Source of the DNA: Skermanella pratensis
Lineage (GTDB): Bacteria > Pseudomonadota > Alphaproteobacteria > Azospirillales > Azospirillaceae
Length of the DNA stretch: 64,000 bases
Direction: 5' to 3'
NCBI RefSeq assembly: GCF_008843145.1
Contig: NZ_CP030265.1
Location: 3,148,001-3,212,000 of the forward strand
The position numbers and the translations under genes are program-made. This document shows positions 9,766-18,941 of the stretch, one piece after another. A model generated the notes under the pieces. That model was not told the origin of the DNA, did no database searches, and saw nothing but the letters and a program-made list of their open reading frames with translations. Numbering within the stretch: the first letter of the stretch is position 1; every line of letters starts with the position of its first letter.

Positions 9766-10137
9766 ATGAGCCAATCCATCCTGATCGCCGACGACGAGCC
9801 GAGCATCCTGCTCTCGCTCCAGTTCCTGCTCCAGAAGGCCGGCTTCGAAGTCCGCCTCGCCAGGAACGGCGAGGAGGTCATCCAGGCGGTCGAGCAGTCG
9901 GTTCCGGACCTGATCCTGCTCGACACCATGATGCCCAAGCGCGACGGTTTCGACGTCTGCCAGACCATACGGGCCAATCCCGCCTGGCAGGGGCTGCCCA
10001 TCGTCATGCTGACGGCCAAGAGCCGCGACGTGGAGCGGCAGAAGGGGATGGCGCTCGGGGCGACGGATTATATCACCAAGCCGTTCTCCACCCGCGACCT
10101 CGTCGAGACGGTGCGCAAGCACCTCGCCGCCGCCTGA
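9766..10137 (+). CDS. Single-domain response regulator
   Basis: A 123-aa CheY-like receiver without an output domain. It has the acidic pair in IADDEP, the phospho-acceptor Asp in LILLDTMMPKRDG, the Thr in VMLTAKS and the Lys in YITKPFS, so it should be phosphorylatable. The ATG at 9766 has GGAGG (9750-9754). It starts a run of genes with a kinase-like/exonuclease fusion 25 bp downstream and an SSS-histidine kinase beyond. It may therefore be the phosphorylation target of that kinase and act by protein contact. Confidence 0.9.
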   Translation: MSQSILIADDEPSILLSLQFLLQKAGFEVRLARNGEEVIQAVEQSVPDLILLDTMMPKRDGFDVCQTIRANPAWQGLPIVMLTAKSRDVERQKGMALGATDYITKPFSTRDLVETVRKHLAAA

Positions 10138-10162: not shown

Positions 10163-12265
10163 ATGGACGGACGCCGCAGACTGGCCTTCCTGTTCGCGTC
10201 GGTCGGCGCGGTGGCTGCCGTTCTGATGATCCTTCTGCCGATGGCGCTCGCGAACGCCGGTGGGAGCGGAGACCCCCTGGTGACCCAGGCCGTCGCCGGG
10301 GTAGCCATCGCCTTGGCCGCCGTTTTCGCGCTGTGGCGGATCGTGGACGGAAGCATCCTGCGGTCCCTGACGGCGCTGGCCGGCGAGGCCCGCGTGATCG
10401 GTCACGGCACCGTCGCGGCCCGGGTTCCGCCGGAGCGGTACGCGGCGCTGGCGCCCCTGCCGCAGGCGATCAACGAACTGGGAGAAAAGCTGGCCGCGGC
10501 CCGGTCCGACATCGACGAGGCGGTCGCCTCCTCGACCGCCGTGGTCCAGGAACAGAAGAGCCGGCTTTCCACCCTGTTGCGCGACCTGCACGAGGGCGTT
10601 CTGGTGTGCAACCAGCAGCACCAGATCCTGCTCTACAACCAGGCCGCCCTTACCCTGCTCCACCTGACCGGCGACCTGGGCCTCGGCCGGAACCTGCTCC
10701 AGGTGGTGACCCGGGCGCCCGTGCTCCACACGCTGGAGCGGCTGACCCTGCGGGTCAAGGACGGGCGCCACCACAGCCACTCCATGGGCGTCACGGCCGA
10801 GTTCGTCGCCGCGACGACCGATGGACGCTACCTGCTCCAGGGACGCATGAGCCTGATCCTCAAGGAGGAGGACGTCATAACCGGCTATGTGGTCACCTTC
10901 GACGACGTCACCGCCGAACTCGCGGCTCTGGGCAAGCGCGATGCGGTCCTTCGCGCCGCGACCGAGGGTTTCCGGCCGCCGGTCGCCAACCTGCGGGCCG
11001 CGGCCGAGACCTTGTCGGACAATCCGGACCTCGACAGGGAATCGCGCCGGGCCTTCGAACAGGTGATCCTGGAAGAATGCGCGGCCCTGGCCAACCGCCT
11101 GGAAAGCGTCACCGGCGACTACCGCAGCATCATCACCGGCGCTTGGCCCATGAGCGACATCCACTCGGGCAACCTGATCAACCTGGTGATCGCCCGGGTC
11201 GTCGCCGCCGGCGGGCCGAACATCACGCTGACCGGGCTGCCGCAGTGGCTGCACGGCGACAGCTACAGCCTCGTCGTGCTGCTCGACCATCTGGTGGGCC
11301 GGCTGGGCGAAGTCACCGGCGCCAAGAACTTCGATCTCTCGGCGGAGACCGGTGGATCCTGGGTCTTCGTCGACATCTCGTGGAGCGGCACGCCGGTCGC
11401 CTCGTCCCTGGTGGACAGCTGGATGGAACAGCCTCTGCCCGACGCGCTGGGCGGCCTGACCGTCACCGACGTCCTCCAGCATCACCGGAGCGAGCTGTGG
11501 TGCGACGCGCCCCGTCCGGGACTGGCGCGCATGCGCGTGCCGCTGCCGCCGACCGAGCAGCTCCATGGCCACGCGGACCGGGCGCCGCCCTCGGCGCGGC
11601 CGGAATTCTTCGACTTCTCCCTGCTGCACCAGCCGATCGCCACGGCCGAGCTGGGCCGGACGCCCCTCGACAAACTGACCTTCGTCGTTTTTGATACCGA
11701 AACGACCGGCCTTCGCCCGTCGGACGGGGACGAGATCATCCAGATCGCCGGCGTGCGGATCGTCAACGGGCGCATCCTCACCGGAGAGACCTTCAGCCAG
11801 CTCGTCGATCCCGGCCGGCCGATCCCGCCGGAGACCATCCGGTTCCACGGCGTCACCGACGACATGGTGCGCGGCAAGCCCCGGGCCTCTGTGGTACTGC
11901 CGCAGTTCCACCTGTTCGTGTCGGGCGCCGTGCTGGTCGCCCACAATGCCGCCTTCGACCTCAAGTTCCTCAAGATGAAGGAAAAGGTCAGCGGGGTCCG
12001 GTTCGACCACCCCGTGCTCGACACGATGCTGCTGTCGCGCCAGCTCCAGGGGCCGGACGCCGACCACACGCTGGACGGCATCGCCAAGCGGATGGGCATC
12101 CAGGTGGTCGACCGCCACACCGCCCTGGGCGACAGCCTGCTGACCGCAGCGATCTTCCTGCGGTTCGTCGACATGCTGCGGGAGCAGAATGTCATCACCC
12201 TCGACGACGCGATCCGAAGCGCCAACATCCTGGTCGAACTGCACGCGCGGGAGCGGGCGTTTTGA
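10163..12265 (+). CDS. Degenerate HAMP-PAS-histidine-kinase-like protein fused to a DnaQ-type 3'-5' exonuclease
   Basis: A 700-aa fusion. Two N-terminal membrane helices (to about residue 62) lead into a HAMP-like linker and coiled coil. A PAS-like sensor follows (about 135-255), then a HisKA-like segment where the acceptor His is Glu268 (ATEGFRPPV in place of VTHELRTPL). The next region resembles a HATPase fold but shows no N, G1 or G2 boxes. Residues ~503-690 form a DEDDh exonuclease: Asp511 and Glu513 (FDTET), Asp599 (HNAAFD), His652 and Asp657 (DRHTALGD). Kinase activity is thus unlikely, whereas 3'-5' nuclease activity on DNA or RNA is predicted. It overlaps the next gene by 4 bp. Confidence 0.85.
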   Translation: MDGRRRLAFLFASVGAVAAVLMILLPMALANAGGSGDPLVTQAVAGVAIALAAVFALWRIVDGSILRSLTALAGEARVIGHGTVAARVPPERYAALAPLPQAINELGEKLAAARSDIDEAVASSTAVVQEQKSRLSTLLRDLHEGVLVCNQQHQILLYNQAALTLLHLTGDLGLGRNLLQVVTRAPVLHTLERLTLRVKDGRHHSHSMGVTAEFVAATTDGRYLLQGRMSLILKEEDVITGYVVTFDDVTAELAALGKRDAVLRAATEGFRPPVANLRAAAETLSDNPDLDRESRRAFEQVILEECAALANRLESVTGDYRSIITGAWPMSDIHSGNLINLVIARVVAAGGPNITLTGLPQWLHGDSYSLVVLLDHLVGRLGEVTGAKNFDLSAETGGSWVFVDISWSGTPVASSLVDSWMEQPLPDALGGLTVTDVLQHHRSELWCDAPRPGLARMRVPLPPTEQLHGHADRAPPSARPEFFDFSLLHQPIATAELGRTPLDKLTFVVFDTETTGLRPSDGDEIIQIAGVRIVNGRILTGETFSQLVDPGRPIPPETIRFHGVTDDMVRGKPRASVVLPQFHLFVSGAVLVAHNAAFDLKFLKMKEKVSGVRFDHPVLDTMLLSRQLQGPDADHTLDGIAKRMGIQVVDRHTALGDSLLTAAIFLRFVDMLREQNVITLDDAIRSANILVELHARERAF

Positions 12266-12510
12266 CCACCCGGCGCGACAGGGCGCCCCCCGGTGGATCT
12301 CCGGGATCACCGTCGGGTGAACGCCTCGTCGCGCTGTTCCTGCTGGCGCTGGTGCTGTTCAACCCGCCGCTGCTGAAAGCGTTCGGCGCTCCCGGCTCGT
12401 TTTTCGGCTGGCCGGCGCTGCTGGTCTACATCTTCGGCACCTGGGCCCTGGTGATCGTCCTGCTCGGGCTGGCGATGGAACGACGGCACCGCGACGAGGA
12501 CAATCGGTGA
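12262..12510 (+). CDS. Two-TM small subunit-like protein upstream of the SSS kinase
   Basis: An 82-aa protein with a basic, disordered N-terminus and two membrane helices (LVALFLLALVLF and LLVYIFGTWALVIVLLGLAM), ending RRHRDEDNR. It starts with TTG inside the previous stop codon and overlaps the kinase gene by one base (TGATG), so translation is coupled. Small two-TM proteins next to sodium:solute symporter genes (DUF4212 or DUF485 type) are known. Size and layout fit that role, but family membership is inferred. Confidence 0.75.
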   Translation: MTTRRDRAPPGGSPGSPSGERLVALFLLALVLFNPPLLKAFGAPGSFFGWPALLVYIFGTWALVIVLLGLAMERRHRDEDNR

Positions 12511-15290
12511 TGCCGGCGTCGCTGATCGCCGTCGCCTCCTTCTCCTACCTGTTCCTGCTGTTCGCGATCGCCTGGGTGGCGGACCGCAGGGCCGACCGGG
12601 GCCGCAGCGTCATCGCGAGCCCCTATGTCTACGCCCTGTCCCTCGGCGTCTTCTGCACCACCTGGACCTTCTACGGCAGCGTCGGACGGGCAGCGACCCT
12701 CGGCATCGGGTTCCTGCCGGTCTATCTCGGGCCGACGCTGGTCATGGTGCTGGCATATCCGGTGATCGCCAAGATCCTGCGGATCGCCCGCAAGCAGCGC
12801 AGCACCTCGATCGCCGATTTCATCGCGTCCCGCTACGGCAAGAGCCAGCTGCTCGGCGGTCTGGTCGCCGCCGTCGCGATCGTCGGCATCACGCCCTACA
12901 TAGCGCTGCAGCTCAAGGCGGTGTCGGTCAGCTTCGACCTGCTGGCCGGTACCGACCCCTCGGGCTTCGGGACCGGTCCCCAGGCGGCCCTTCTCGCGGA
13001 CAAGGCGTTCTACGTGGCCTTGCTGATGGCCGCCTTCGCCATCGTGTTCGGCACCCGCAACATCGACGCCACCGAGCACCACCAGGGGATGGTCGCGGCG
13101 GTCGCGTTCGAGAGCGTGATCAAGCTGGTCTCCTTCCTGGCGGTCGGCATCATGGTCGTGTGGGGCCTGCATGACGGCTTCACCGACCTGTTCGACCGGG
13201 CGGCGGCCGATCCGAGGACCGCGCGCCTGCTGACCGCAGAGCCGGCCCTGGCGGACGGCAGCTGGATCACGGTCACGCTCCTCTCCATGGCGGCGATCAT
13301 CTGCCTGCCGCGCCAGTTCCAGGTGACGGTGGTGGAGAACATACGGGAGTCGCACCTGCGCCGCGCGGTCTGGCTGTTCCCGCTCTACATGCTGCTGATC
13401 AACCTGTTCGTGCTGCCGGTGGCGGTTGCCGGCATGCTGCTGTTCCCCGGCGGCACGGTCGATCCCGACATGTTCGTCCTCGCCGTGCCGCTGTCGGAAG
13501 GCTGGCGCGCCCTCGCCATGTTCGCCTTCCTGGGGGGCCTGTCGGCGGCCACCAGCATGATCATCGTGGAGACGGTGGCGCTCAGCACCATGGTTTCCAA
13601 CGACCTCGTCATCCCGGCGCTTCTCAACCTGCGTGTCCTGAAGCTGGACCGCCACCCGGACCTGACGCCCCTGCTGCTGGCGATCCGGCGCGTCGCCATC
13701 CTGACGATCCTGCTGCTGGGCTACGCCTATTTCCGGTTCGCCGGCAGCGCCTATGCGCTGGGAGCCATCGGGCTGATCTCCTTCACCGCGGTCGCCCAGT
13801 TCGCCCCGGCCCTGATCGGCGGCATCTTCTGGAGCCGGGCGACCCGGCGCGGCGCCATCGCCGGGCTGGTCGCCGGCATCGCCGCCTGGACCTACACGCT
13901 GCTCCTGCCCTCCTTCGCGCGGTCGGGCTGGCTGGACCCCGGTTTCCTGACCGATGGTCCCGCCGGCATGACCCTGCTGCGCCCCTATGCCCTGTTCGGC
14001 CTCGAAGGGCTCGACCCGCTGTCGCATGCGCTGTTCTGGAGCATGCTCGCCAATCTCGGGCTCTATGTCGGCGTGTCGCTGTTCGACCGGCCCAGCGTCG
14101 GGGAGCGGGTCCAGGCCCACGCCTTCGTCGACGTATTCCGCCAGACCGAACGTTCGATCGAGGGCGGCACTTGGCGGGGCAGCACGACGGTCGGCGACCT
14201 CGTCGCCCTGGTCGGGCGGTTTCTCGGGCCGCAGCGTGCCGAGCAGGCTTTCGCCGGCTTCGCCCGGGGCCGCAACATCGACCTGCGCCGCGACCGCCGG
14301 GCGACCGCCGAACTGGTCCGGTTCGGCGAGCGGCTCATGGCCGGCGCGGTCGGCGCCGCCTCCGCCCGCGTGGCGCTCGCCTCCGCGATCAAAGGCGGCG
14401 AAGTTACCATGGCCGAGCTGTTGCGAATGCTGGACGAGACCAGCCAGGTGCTGGAATACAGCCGGCAGCTCGAACAGAAGTCCGCCGAGCTGGAGCGCAC
14501 CTCGGCGGCGCTTCGGGCCGCCAACGAAAAGCTGCTGGAACTGGACCGGCTCAAGGACGAATTCCTGTCCACCGTCACGCACGAGCTGCGGACGCCGCTG
14601 ACCTCCGTGCGAGCCTTCGCAGAGATCCTGCACGACAATCCCGACATCGACCGCGAGCAGTCGCAGGAGTTCCTGGGCCTGATCATCCGGGAGAGCGAGC
14701 GCCTGACCCGGCTGATCAACCAGGTCCTCGACATGGCCAAGATCGAGGCGGGCGAGATCGACTGGACCATCGGCCCGGTCGATCTCGCCGCGATCATGCG
14801 CGACGCCGCGGCGACCACCGCCCAGGTGTTCAAGGATAAGGACATCGTCCTGGAACAGAATGTTCCGGCCGGCGTGCCGCTGGTCCGGGGAGACCACGAC
14901 CGACTGACGCAGGTCGCGATGAACCTGCTGTCCAACGCCGCCAAGTTCACCCCGTCCGGAACCGGCCGGGTGGTTGTCAGCGTCGAGCCGGTCGCGGAGG
15001 GGGTCCGCGTCGCCGTCGCCGACAACGGCCCGGGCATCGCGCCCGGCGATGCGGAAATCGTCTTCGACAAGTTCCGCCAGGTCGGCAACACCATGACCGA
15101 CAAGCCGCAAGGCACCGGCTTGGGCCTTGCCATATGCAAACGCATCGTCGAACATCTGGACGGTCGCATCTGGGTGGAAACCGCTCCGGACCGTGGTGCA
15201 ACCTTCGCCTTCGTCATCCCTTACCAGAGCGCTTCTTCAACCCCTTCTCCCCCGGGCGCCGAAACAGTGGCGACCGCAGCCGAAGATTGA
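12510..15290 (+). CDS. Sodium:solute symporter-histidine kinase fusion (CbrA/CrbS-like)
   Basis: A 926-aa sensor. The N-terminal ~500 residues are an SSS-family transporter module with about 13 helices (FCTTWTFYGSVGRAATLGIGFLP; RSTSIADFIASRYGK). A linker and coiled coil lead to HisKA with the acceptor His691 (VTHELRTPLT), then a complete HATPase: N box NLLSNAAKF, G1 DNGPGIAP, G2 GTGLGLAI. CbrA and CrbS of this type control carbon or acetate use in gammaproteobacteria, so nutrient sensing is likely. ATG at 12510 is used; GTG at 12507 is in frame. The partner is probably the lone receiver at 9766 or an unlinked regulator. Confidence 0.9.
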   Translation: MPASLIAVASFSYLFLLFAIAWVADRRADRGRSVIASPYVYALSLGVFCTTWTFYGSVGRAATLGIGFLPVYLGPTLVMVLAYPVIAKILRIARKQRSTSIADFIASRYGKSQLLGGLVAAVAIVGITPYIALQLKAVSVSFDLLAGTDPSGFGTGPQAALLADKAFYVALLMAAFAIVFGTRNIDATEHHQGMVAAVAFESVIKLVSFLAVGIMVVWGLHDGFTDLFDRAAADPRTARLLTAEPALADGSWITVTLLSMAAIICLPRQFQVTVVENIRESHLRRAVWLFPLYMLLINLFVLPVAVAGMLLFPGGTVDPDMFVLAVPLSEGWRALAMFAFLGGLSAATSMIIVETVALSTMVSNDLVIPALLNLRVLKLDRHPDLTPLLLAIRRVAILTILLLGYAYFRFAGSAYALGAIGLISFTAVAQFAPALIGGIFWSRATRRGAIAGLVAGIAAWTYTLLLPSFARSGWLDPGFLTDGPAGMTLLRPYALFGLEGLDPLSHALFWSMLANLGLYVGVSLFDRPSVGERVQAHAFVDVFRQTERSIEGGTWRGSTTVGDLVALVGRFLGPQRAEQAFAGFARGRNIDLRRDRRATAELVRFGERLMAGAVGAASARVALASAIKGGEVTMAELLRMLDETSQVLEYSRQLEQKSAELERTSAALRAANEKLLELDRLKDEFLSTVTHELRTPLTSVRAFAEILHDNPDIDREQSQEFLGLIIRESERLTRLINQVLDMAKIEAGEIDWTIGPVDLAAIMRDAAATTAQVFKDKDIVLEQNVPAGVPLVRGDHDRLTQVAMNLLSNAAKFTPSGTGRVVVSVEPVAEGVRVAVADNGPGIAPGDAEIVFDKFRQVGNTMTDKPQGTGLGLAICKRIVEHLDGRIWVETAPDRGATFAFVIPYQSASSTPSPPGAETVATAAED

Positions 15291-17337: not shown

Positions 17338-18941
17338 TCAGCCTTCCAGGAAGGTCTTCAGAACCCGGGCGTGCTTTGCCCGGCCGAGCCGTTGCAGCGC
17401 CTTCGCCTCGACCTGGCGGATGCGCTCGCGGGTCACGTTGTAGTCGCGGCCGATGTCCTCCAGCGTCTCCTCGGTCCCGGCAAGGCCGAAGCGACGGCGG
17501 ATGATGTCGGCCTCGCGCGGGTGAGGTCGTCCAGGATCTCCGACAGCTTCTCGCGCAGCGAGCCGGCGGCGATCGCGTCGAACGCACCGGTCGTGGCGCT
17601 GTCCTCCAGGAAGTCGCCCAGCCGCGCGCCGTCGTCGTCGTCACCGACCGGAGCGTCCAGGCTGACCGCGTCGGCCGCCATGCGCAGCAGTTCGGCGACC
17701 TTCTCGACCGGCATCGCCAGAGCGGTCGCGATATCCTCGTTGGTCGGCTCGATGCCCCGGCGCAGGCGGAGCTGAACCGCGCAACGGCGGATCTTGGTCA
17801 GTGCCTCGCAGGCATGGGCCGGCATGCGGATCGTGCGGCCCTGGTCGGCCAGCGCCCGGGTCATCGACTGCCGGATCCACCAGGTCGCATAGGTCGAGAA
17901 CTTGTAGCCGCGCCGCCAATCGAACTTCTCGATCGCGGTCATCAGGCCGATATTGCCCTCCTGCACCAGATCCAGGAACGGCAGGCCCCGGTTCAGATGC
18001 TTGCGGGCCAGGGCCGCGACCAACCGCAAATTGGCCTTGGCGAAGGATTCCTTGGTGCGGATCTGGTCATTCTGCGACCGCTGCAGGCGGGCGGAGAGCT
18101 CGCGGAACTGGCTGATCGGCAGCTCGACGGTCTGGCCGATCTCGGCCAGCTCGGCGAACAGGGCATCGACTTCCTGGCCCTTGCGCTCGGCCAGCTTGGC
18201 CCAGGCACCGCTCTTGGCAGCCCGCTTGGCCAGCCAGTTCTCCTCATCCTCGGAGCCGAGATAGGCTTCCAGGAAGGCCTCGCGCTTGATGCCGCTGGCC
18301 ATGACGACGCGGGCCAGACGACCGTCGACGCCGACGATGCGCCGGTTGACGTCGCGCATTGCGTTGATCAGCTCGGTGCGCATGTCGATCGACAGCGGCA
18401 GCTCGCGGATCAACGCGGCGGCAGCCGCGGCGTCGGTCCGATGGACCGCCTCGATCCGCTCCAGCGCCTCGACCACCGACGCGGCCAGTTCGGCAGCGGA
18501 TATCACCGGAACCGCCACGGCCTCCGCTACTTCCGTATCCCCATCGGCGACCTCGGCGAGGTCGTCGTCCAGCGCCGCGTCCTCGCTCTCGGCTTCGGCC
18601 CCCAAGCGGGCGAATCGCTCGAGGTCCACGACGGTGCCGACATTGACGGAACCGTCGCGCAGACCCTGGAGGCTCCGCATGAGCCGGGTGCAAGTGAAGG
18701 GGCTGGCCGCGATCACGTCGTCGATGGCGGCACGGGCGGCCTCCATGCGCTGGGCAAGCGTCACCTCCTGCTCACGCGTCAGCAGCGGGTGCTGCGCCAC
18801 GTCACGCAGGTAAAGCCGGACCGGGTCGGTCGAATGCTCGGCGAAGGCGATGTTGCCGCGGGCTCCCGCAGTCTCGTTGCGCACCGCAGTGGCGCGATCG
18901 GCGTCGGCGACAGGATGCGCCGTGATTTCAAGGGCGGTCAT
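17338..18941 (-). CDS. Sigma-70 family RNA polymerase sigma factor (RpoD-like, group 1/2), frameshifted before region 4
   Basis: Directs RNA polymerase to -35/-10 promoters. Region 1.2 ([21 protein letters not shown]) and a long nonconserved region are followed by region 2 ([42 protein letters not shown]) and region 3. The frame breaks at 17519-17521 (three Gs on the + strand, probably four originally), leaving a nonsense tail that stops at 17433. One added base restores region 4 ([13 protein letters not shown] ... [14 protein letters not shown]) and a 534-aa product stopping at 17338. It is shorter than housekeeping RpoD (~650 aa) and may be a group 2 factor. ATG 18941 has GAGGA upstream. 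Confidence 0.85.

Follow-up and report, generated by a model that had tools for sequence, protein, structure and literature searches.

Two-component systems act mostly through DNA binding, cyclic-di-nucleotide turnover, chemotaxis or protein contacts. Several described systems lie close to the locus analyzed here, and our account of them draws on parts of the reports cited. A precedent comes from Caulobacter: DivL has a kinase fold in which the histidine is replaced, and its kinase domains recognize a REC-only response regulator in its phosphorylated form, as a phospho-specific input sensor (PMC4211667). In Pseudomonas putida, PP_0353, which has an RNase_T match, and PP_0354, a CBS protein, are encoded in one operon (PMC9927547), and the promoter of pp_0354 is a binding site of ErdR, whose cognate sensor is the SLC5/STAC kinase MxtR (PMC8402216). 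Growth on 20 mM pyruvate is slowed by deletion of pp_0353, mxtR or erdR and, in the parts of the report drawn on here, not by deletion of pp_0354; on 20 mM acetate, deletion of either pp_0353 or pp_0354 is described there as without effect (PMC9927547). The same authors speculate that the nuclease PP_0353 degrades mRNA, and place its homologue and that of PP_0354 beside actP and yjcH in P. aeruginosa PAO1 (PMC9927547). The structure 10ED is that of CbrXA (PMC13022988), and cbrX and cbrA are translationally coupled in Pseudomonas (PMC6591292).

The window (the whole stretch of DNA that was analyzed, 64,000 nucleotides at positions 3148001-3212000 of the 5.87-Mb single-contig genome of Skermanella pratensis) encodes a kinase-like protein fused to an exonuclease, in an operon with an SLC5/STAC-type sensor kinase (Table 1). 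A full-text search of the open-licence literature, covering titles and the starts of abstracts, found no description of a kinase-like/exonuclease fusion.

Results

Domain structure of the fusion protein

An earlier note, made from the sequence alone, had described the fusion as one 700-residue frame with two transmembrane helices, a HAMP segment, a PAS-like region, histidine-kinase-like domains and a DEDDh exonuclease with all five catalytic residues. Our analysis confirms each of these elements apart from the HAMP segment, for which Pfam gave no match. The AlphaFold2 model of the whole fusion has a mean pLDDT of 84.8 beside a pTM of 0.50, which indicates that the domains are well defined and that their arrangement relative to one another is not. 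Because VIA-align returned exonucleases only when given the whole model, the kinase part was modeled separately. The RPEFFDF linker is kept ahead of the exonuclease in the long forms defined below, and similar motifs occur in several short forms.

Table 1. Features of the operon and of the fusion protein (positions in the window)
Feature	Position	Strand	Basis
REC-only response regulator, single receiver, first operon gene	9766..10137	+	Pfam Response_reg E 1.9e-31; ATG at 9766
Pseudokinase-exonuclease fusion, 700 aa	10163..12265	+	single ORF with ATG start, Pfam, AlphaFold2 model
Two predicted transmembrane segments, residues 7-25 and 39-57, then long helices	10181..10333	+	hydropathy scan; model helices 2-30, 38-81
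PAS domain, residues 134-249	10562..10909	+	Pfam PAS E 2.1e-8
DHp-like helical hairpin, residues 250-326; E268 at the place of the phospho-accepting His of kinases	10910..11140	+	model, alignment
Degenerate CA (ATPase-fold) domain, residues 331-461	11153..11545	+	alignment, model of kinase part
Linker motif RPEFFDF, residues 479-485	11597..11617	+	alignment
DEDDh exonuclease domain, residues 504-676	11672..12190	+	closest solved relative is a PolC-type exonuclease
CbrX-like small membrane peptide, 82 aa	12262..12510	+	TTG start, 4-base overlap with fusion stop
SLC5/STAC-type sensor histidine kinase (CbrA/CrbS kind), kinase domains intact	12507..15290	+	Pfam, phmmer

Distribution of long and short forms

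The fusion is matched at 87 and 79% in Skermanella, at 60-63% in Azospirillum and at 60% in one Roseomonas-titled record, and its full-length form is present in 22 of the 35 genomes of the window's GTDB family, its own genome included. Searches for the exonuclease (E<=1e-30) gave matches in 37 of 385 genomes of the class, 12 of them near full-length, and in 58 of 398 genomes of the phylum; 29 of the 37 class positives (G078, G100, G219, G268, G295, G312, G371 and G413 were left out) and 40 of the 58 phylum positives (18 left out) were read. The locus set comprises 85 loci from 84 genomes. Long forms, with at least 420 residues ahead of the exonuclease, make up 61 of the 85 and come from 18 GTDB families, of which 10 belong to the same class as the window and eight lie outside it. 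This spread, which the earlier note had set as a test of its reading, rules out a fusion confined to close strains.

The 24 short forms have 3-386 residues ahead of the exonuclease, with no predicted transmembrane segment in five, one in three and two or more in 16, and with a PAS match in seven. In L154, L155, L156 and L159 the exonuclease lies N-terminal to DUF294, DUF294_C and CBS domains in one frame. Another short form, L113, has nine predicted transmembrane segments ahead of the exonuclease; it is probably the one of the 24 with an EamA match (5.9e-33). In an exonuclease tree built by a quick method, whose root rests on just six DnaQ rows and in which L153 forms a long branch, the long form requires six label changes, which implies that the pseudokinase was either lost repeatedly or gained more than once. 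We do not claim a single origin of the long form.

The kinase part

Judged by its residues, the kinase part of the fusion has lost its kinase chemistry in every one of the 61 full-length relatives and is a dead pseudokinase. The phospho-accepting H-box histidine, replaced by E268 in the window, is present in none of them; glutamate stands in its place in 40, aspartate in seven and a gap in one, the column being uncertain in five rows (L139, L142, L147, L148, L149). W407, G409 and H441 of the CA domain are conserved, and both the first N-box asparagine and the G1 aspartate are lost, with 0 of 61 for each and tryptophan at the G1 place in 56. Two further alignments, A1 and A3, cover 58 long forms, with the near-copies L021, L029 and L145 omitted. 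The absence of all three residues from every long form rules out an active sensor kinase. In the model of the kinase part alone, the DHp and CA fold is retained despite these losses, the ATPase-like region included, as the modeling suggested in the earlier note now shows. The description of this part as kinase-like in that note holds for the fold, and is corrected here to that of a pseudokinase.

DivL is among the solved structures nearest to the pseudokinase, both by profile (4q20, E 1.4e-10) and by fold. A 73-residue DHp fragment was searched against 33 whole genomes, a search that scores only candidates from a loose first look; in each of the 13 genomes with both proteins (13 of 13), its sole other match at E<=0.01 was the SLC5/STAC kinase of the operon. 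These genomes are related and so do not amount to 13 independent tests. Two of these genomes carry the partner kinase on another contig. The DHp of the pseudokinase resembles that of the partner kinase, yet the residues needed to take up phosphate or hand it on are gone. The hairpin is shortened (41-52 residues against 71-79) in four long forms without an upstream REC gene, L139, L142, L147 and L148, which belong to one clade and so count as a single event. In L149 the DHp is likewise short (49), yet a REC gene is present. The coincidence of short DHp and missing REC is thus weak evidence for a link between the two.

The exonuclease part

The C-terminal domain of the fusion is, by its residues, an intact-looking DEDDh exonuclease. 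Its RNase_T match spans residues 508-665 (Pfam, E 2.9e-35), the RNase_T fold covers the whole domain, and D511, E513, D599, H652 and D657 are all present, the histidine five residues ahead of the last aspartate. All five residues are kept in 81 of the 85 loci. The four losses, all in long forms that keep the whole protein, are D599E in L036 and L037, D511E with D599Q in L038, and D511G with D599A in L039; they fall in one genus, g6, and may therefore be one event. A fifth g6 locus, L040, is intact, and none of the remaining 80 loci outside the genus shows a catalytic loss. In each of six Skermanella pairs, dN is lower for the exonuclease than for any other part compared.

Operon structure and gene neighbors

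The operon runs REC, fusion, CbrX-like peptide and SLC5/STAC kinase, with a 25-base gap followed by two 4-base overlaps, and none of its four genes encodes a DNA-binding regulator. In the REC-only protein we found no output domain; its sole other Pfam match above the cut-off, PDE8A_N, overlaps Response_reg. The 82-residue peptide has no match in Pfam (E<=1) or NCBIfam (E<=0.1), which rules out DUF4212, a lead that the mention of DUF4212/SSS symporter genes in the earlier note had given, and we call it CbrX-like by its position and hydrophobicity; DUF4212, SSS and DUF294 genes stand in a row at another place in the genome. The GTG start of the partner kinase overlaps the stop of the CbrX-like gene by four bases, with an in-frame ATG at 12510. 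This kinase consists of an SLC5 transporter part (SSF E 3.6e-4, just short of the cut-off) fused to active-type HisKA (E 6.7e-20) and HATPase_c (E 7.9e-29) domains, and it matches the CbrA structure 10ed over residues 9-539 (phmmer E 2.1e-71). The libraries searched list no STAC match and the 10ed alignment ends at residue 539; residues 561-665 are a putative STAC four-helix domain. Pfam finds no PAS domain in the kinase.

Two other genes of this genome deserve mention. A second SSS-type protein of 1130 residues, with PAS, HisKA, HATPase and receiver domains, is encoded at 3003000-3020000 (L183) beside a divergent DUF485 gene, an arrangement that resembles that of CrbS. In the window itself, an RpoD-like sigma factor of 502 residues (17433-18941, minus strand) matches regions 1.2, non-essential, 2 and 3 and not region 4; region-4-like residues follow in another frame, and its relative in L020 is a continuous frame of 534 residues. 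The break may be either a real disruption or a sequencing error.

Tabulation of the gene neighbors, which the earlier note had proposed, shows that 54 of 61 long forms, and 0 of 24 short forms, have a REC gene on the same strand immediately before them, no more than 2600 bases from the start of the exonuclease (Fisher 3e-15, a value that overstates independence, the genomes being related). Among the RECs aligned (the best match of at least 35% identity per locus), the phospho-accepting aspartate and the lysine are kept in 57 of 57; the upstream RECs of L106, L121, L134, L136 and L149 are distant (35-43%). L103, L107 and L135 are among the seven long forms without an upstream REC and have a full-length DHp. 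The order REC-fusion-CbrX-SSS/HK recurs in most loci of the window's GTDB family, where the stretches read around 22 loci hold REC in 22, a CbrX-like gene in 20, SSS/STAC in 16 and DUF294 in none; L030 and L036-L040 lack both DUF294 and SSS there. DUF294 genes (58) and SSS-type genes of any kind (54) are common among the 63 loci outside the family, with REC in 37 and CbrX-like genes in 15, and both DUF294 and SSS are missing from the stretches read at L121 and L135. A DUF4212 query matches 27 of the 85 loci.

Across the 35 family genomes, the fusion and an SSS/HK ortholog (62-100% identity, with paralogs at 43-51%) occur together in 21, the fusion alone in one, the ortholog alone in none and neither in 13 (Fisher 9e-9, again inflated by relatedness). 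In the single exception, G016, REC and fusion are kept and the partner kinase is missing; the SSS/HK matches in G004 and G010 carry one internal TGA each. As a control, 16-kb stretches around 17 chosen DnaQ-like places, a selection from the DnaQ-like genes found, showed no neighbor marker in any. The window's genome has a separate DnaQ-like gene, 32% identical and without fusion-type neighbors, and together with the control loci it rules out a misassigned replicative DnaQ.

Linkage to a DUF294/CBS protein

The association with DUF294 extends beyond gene neighborhoods. In the class (385 genomes), DUF294 (E<=1e-15) is found in 36 of 37 exonuclease-positive genomes and 35 of 348 others, some of which may hold exonucleases below the 1e-30 cut. 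The one positive genome without it, G097, is 68% complete and its exonuclease is intact. In the window's family, DUF294 (E<1e-30) is present in 17 of 22 fusion genomes and one of 13 others; it adjoins the fusion in none of the 22 loci, and where present it is encoded at another place in the genome. It is missing from five fusion genomes, which are the five of genus g6, four of them with catalytic losses. Outside the family, five loci lack DUF294 in the stretch read (L102, L104, L121, L135, L146); four of these genomes have a strong match elsewhere (E 3e-42 or better) and one (G097) has none. DUF294 is thus absent genome-wide for six of the 85 loci, and these include all four catalytic losses. 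GSxxRxE and DQD, which we take to be a nucleotidyltransferase signature, are kept in 60 of 60 DUF294 proteins aligned (58 from the loci, two from the window's own genome).

In genus g6, L036-L040 all keep the fusion, lack DUF294, have damaged active sites in four of five cases and carry the partner kinase elsewhere in the genome. Another arrangement is seen in the window's own genome (L181, 2492500-2510000), where a row of DUF4212, SSF symporter and DUF294/CBS/cNMP genes stands without an exonuclease, unlike many other loci in which the exonuclease accompanies the symporter-DUF294 pair.

Discussion

We propose a two-component-type pathway with an enzyme, and not a transcription factor, as its output, a chain that as a whole we are equally ready to believe and to doubt. 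The SLC5/STAC kinase would sense or carry a carbon source and autophosphorylate, as its family suggests, and operon structure and linkage point to the REC-only regulator as the protein that it may then phosphorylate. Phosphorylated REC could dock on the DHp face of the pseudokinase, by analogy with the kinase fold of DivL that reads phosphorylated DivK. A resulting rearrangement of the PAS, DHp and CA domains might gate the membrane-tethered exonuclease, which would trim 3'-terminal nucleotides from a cytoplasmic RNA, an oligonucleotide or a nucleotidylated substrate. Linkage makes the accompanying DUF294/CBS nucleotidyltransferase the most likely source of that substrate, which it would make or mark. 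The earlier note had the membrane protein itself read a nutrient signal that controls a nuclease; the sensor-like membrane protein and its tie to nutrient-sensing genes stand, and the likely input also includes the neighboring SLC5/STAC kinase, presumably by way of REC. Against the mechanism, the 24 short forms manage without a pseudokinase, seven long forms lack an upstream REC (three of them despite a full-length DHp), some upstream RECs are distant, and G016 has no partner kinase. The absence of DUF294 beside the fusion in all 22 family loci and the damaged active sites of four long forms also speak against it.

Other readings of the same parts must be weighed. A DHp domain is a dimerization module, and the closest match to that of the pseudokinase is the partner kinase DHp in 13 of 13 genomes, encoded in the same operon through 4-base overlaps; the pseudokinase might pair or form a complex with that kinase and tune its activity, the exonuclease being held at the membrane for a separate job. 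We consider this unlikely, as REC and fusion remain together in genus g6 while the partner kinase lies elsewhere, L106, L134, L136 and L149 have an upstream REC with no SLC5/STAC kinase in the stretch read, and REC linkage distinguishes long from short forms. That same linkage (54 of 61 against 0 of 24), along with the maintained DHp, is left unexplained by the model of the earlier note, in which a signal detected by the protein's own transmembrane helices and PAS domain would control the exonuclease in cis, REC and kinase being co-regulated with it and no more. Switching in cis would fit the retention of both helices and PAS, and the PAS match in seven of 24 short forms that have no long pseudokinase region, and we hold it to be improbable.

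The remaining alternatives concern the exonuclease. Four of the five g6 copies have lost D511 and/or D599 and kept the whole fusion, as might be seen if the C-terminal domain were a nucleotide- or protein-binding module, no longer a nuclease, in a double pseudoenzyme scaffold; with five residues kept in 81 of 85 loci and exonuclease dN lowest in six of six Skermanella pairs, we find this very hard to sustain. Still less credible, to the point that we give it almost no weight, is the idea that the fusion arose by chance, or that the gene is an ordinary DnaQ gene for DNA proofreading whose N-terminal extension is spurious: the exonuclease is indeed nearest to PolC/DnaQ-type domains, but conservation of the same fusion in 18 GTDB families contradicts it, as does the separate DnaQ-like gene at 32% identity that lacks these neighbors.

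Returning to the proposed pathway, it is tempting, if doubtful, to imagine a signaling currency not described before. A DUF294/CBS/cNMP nucleotidyltransferase would attach nucleotides to a protein, a small oligonucleotide or the end of an RNA, to be erased by the DEDDh exonuclease; across much of the phylum, this eraser would have come under direct, non-transcriptional control of the SLC5/STAC transporter-kinase through binding of phosphorylated REC to the pseudokinase, and where the nucleotidyltransferase is lost, in g6, the active site of the eraser would decay. The deletion phenotypes of pp_0353 and pp_0354 do not favor a simple nucleotidyltransferase-exonuclease pair.

Our findings suggest that the sensing of nutrients may act on an enzyme directly, beyond switching genes. 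If true, a pseudokinase that couples phospho-REC to an exonuclease with no step between them would be an added class of two-component output. Moreover, the linkages give concrete partners to two members of the acetate/pyruvate regulon that are widespread and uncharacterized, the RNase_T exonuclease of the PP_0353 kind and the DUF294/CBS protein of the PP_0354 kind, whose function becomes testable.

Comparison with known systems

The exonuclease domain shares its fold and five catalytic residues with DEDDh exonucleases of the PolC and DnaQ types, and differs from them in being membrane-tethered and C-terminal to a pseudokinase, with no polymerase gene among the neighbors identified. The operon resembles CbrXA in that the partner kinase matches 10ed and its start is overlapped by the gene of a small peptide; unlike CbrXA, the kinase has no Pfam PAS domain, a REC-only gene stands in place of CbrB, and the operon includes the exonuclease fusion. 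As with DivL and DivK, a PAS domain is combined with a DHp/CA kinase fold whose phospho-accepting histidine is replaced, and a REC-only regulator is the likely partner. The residue at that site is tyrosine in DivL and mostly glutamate or aspartate in the fusion, the output here is a DEDDh exonuclease, and the tie to REC is one of gene linkage; we know of no enzyme fused to DivL.

The CrbS/R (MxtR/ErdR) system also joins an SLC5/STAC kinase to an RNase_T-type exonuclease, through control of the operon for that exonuclease and a CBS protein in P. putida, and a similar gene set, with DUF294/CBS and SSS symporter genes, surrounds the exonuclease family described here. That link is transcriptional, by way of a DNA-binding regulator, whereas here the exonuclease is fused to a pseudokinase. 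By this analogy, the tie between exonuclease and SLC5/STAC kinase may be read as transcriptional in Pseudomonas and as protein-level in the operon of the window.
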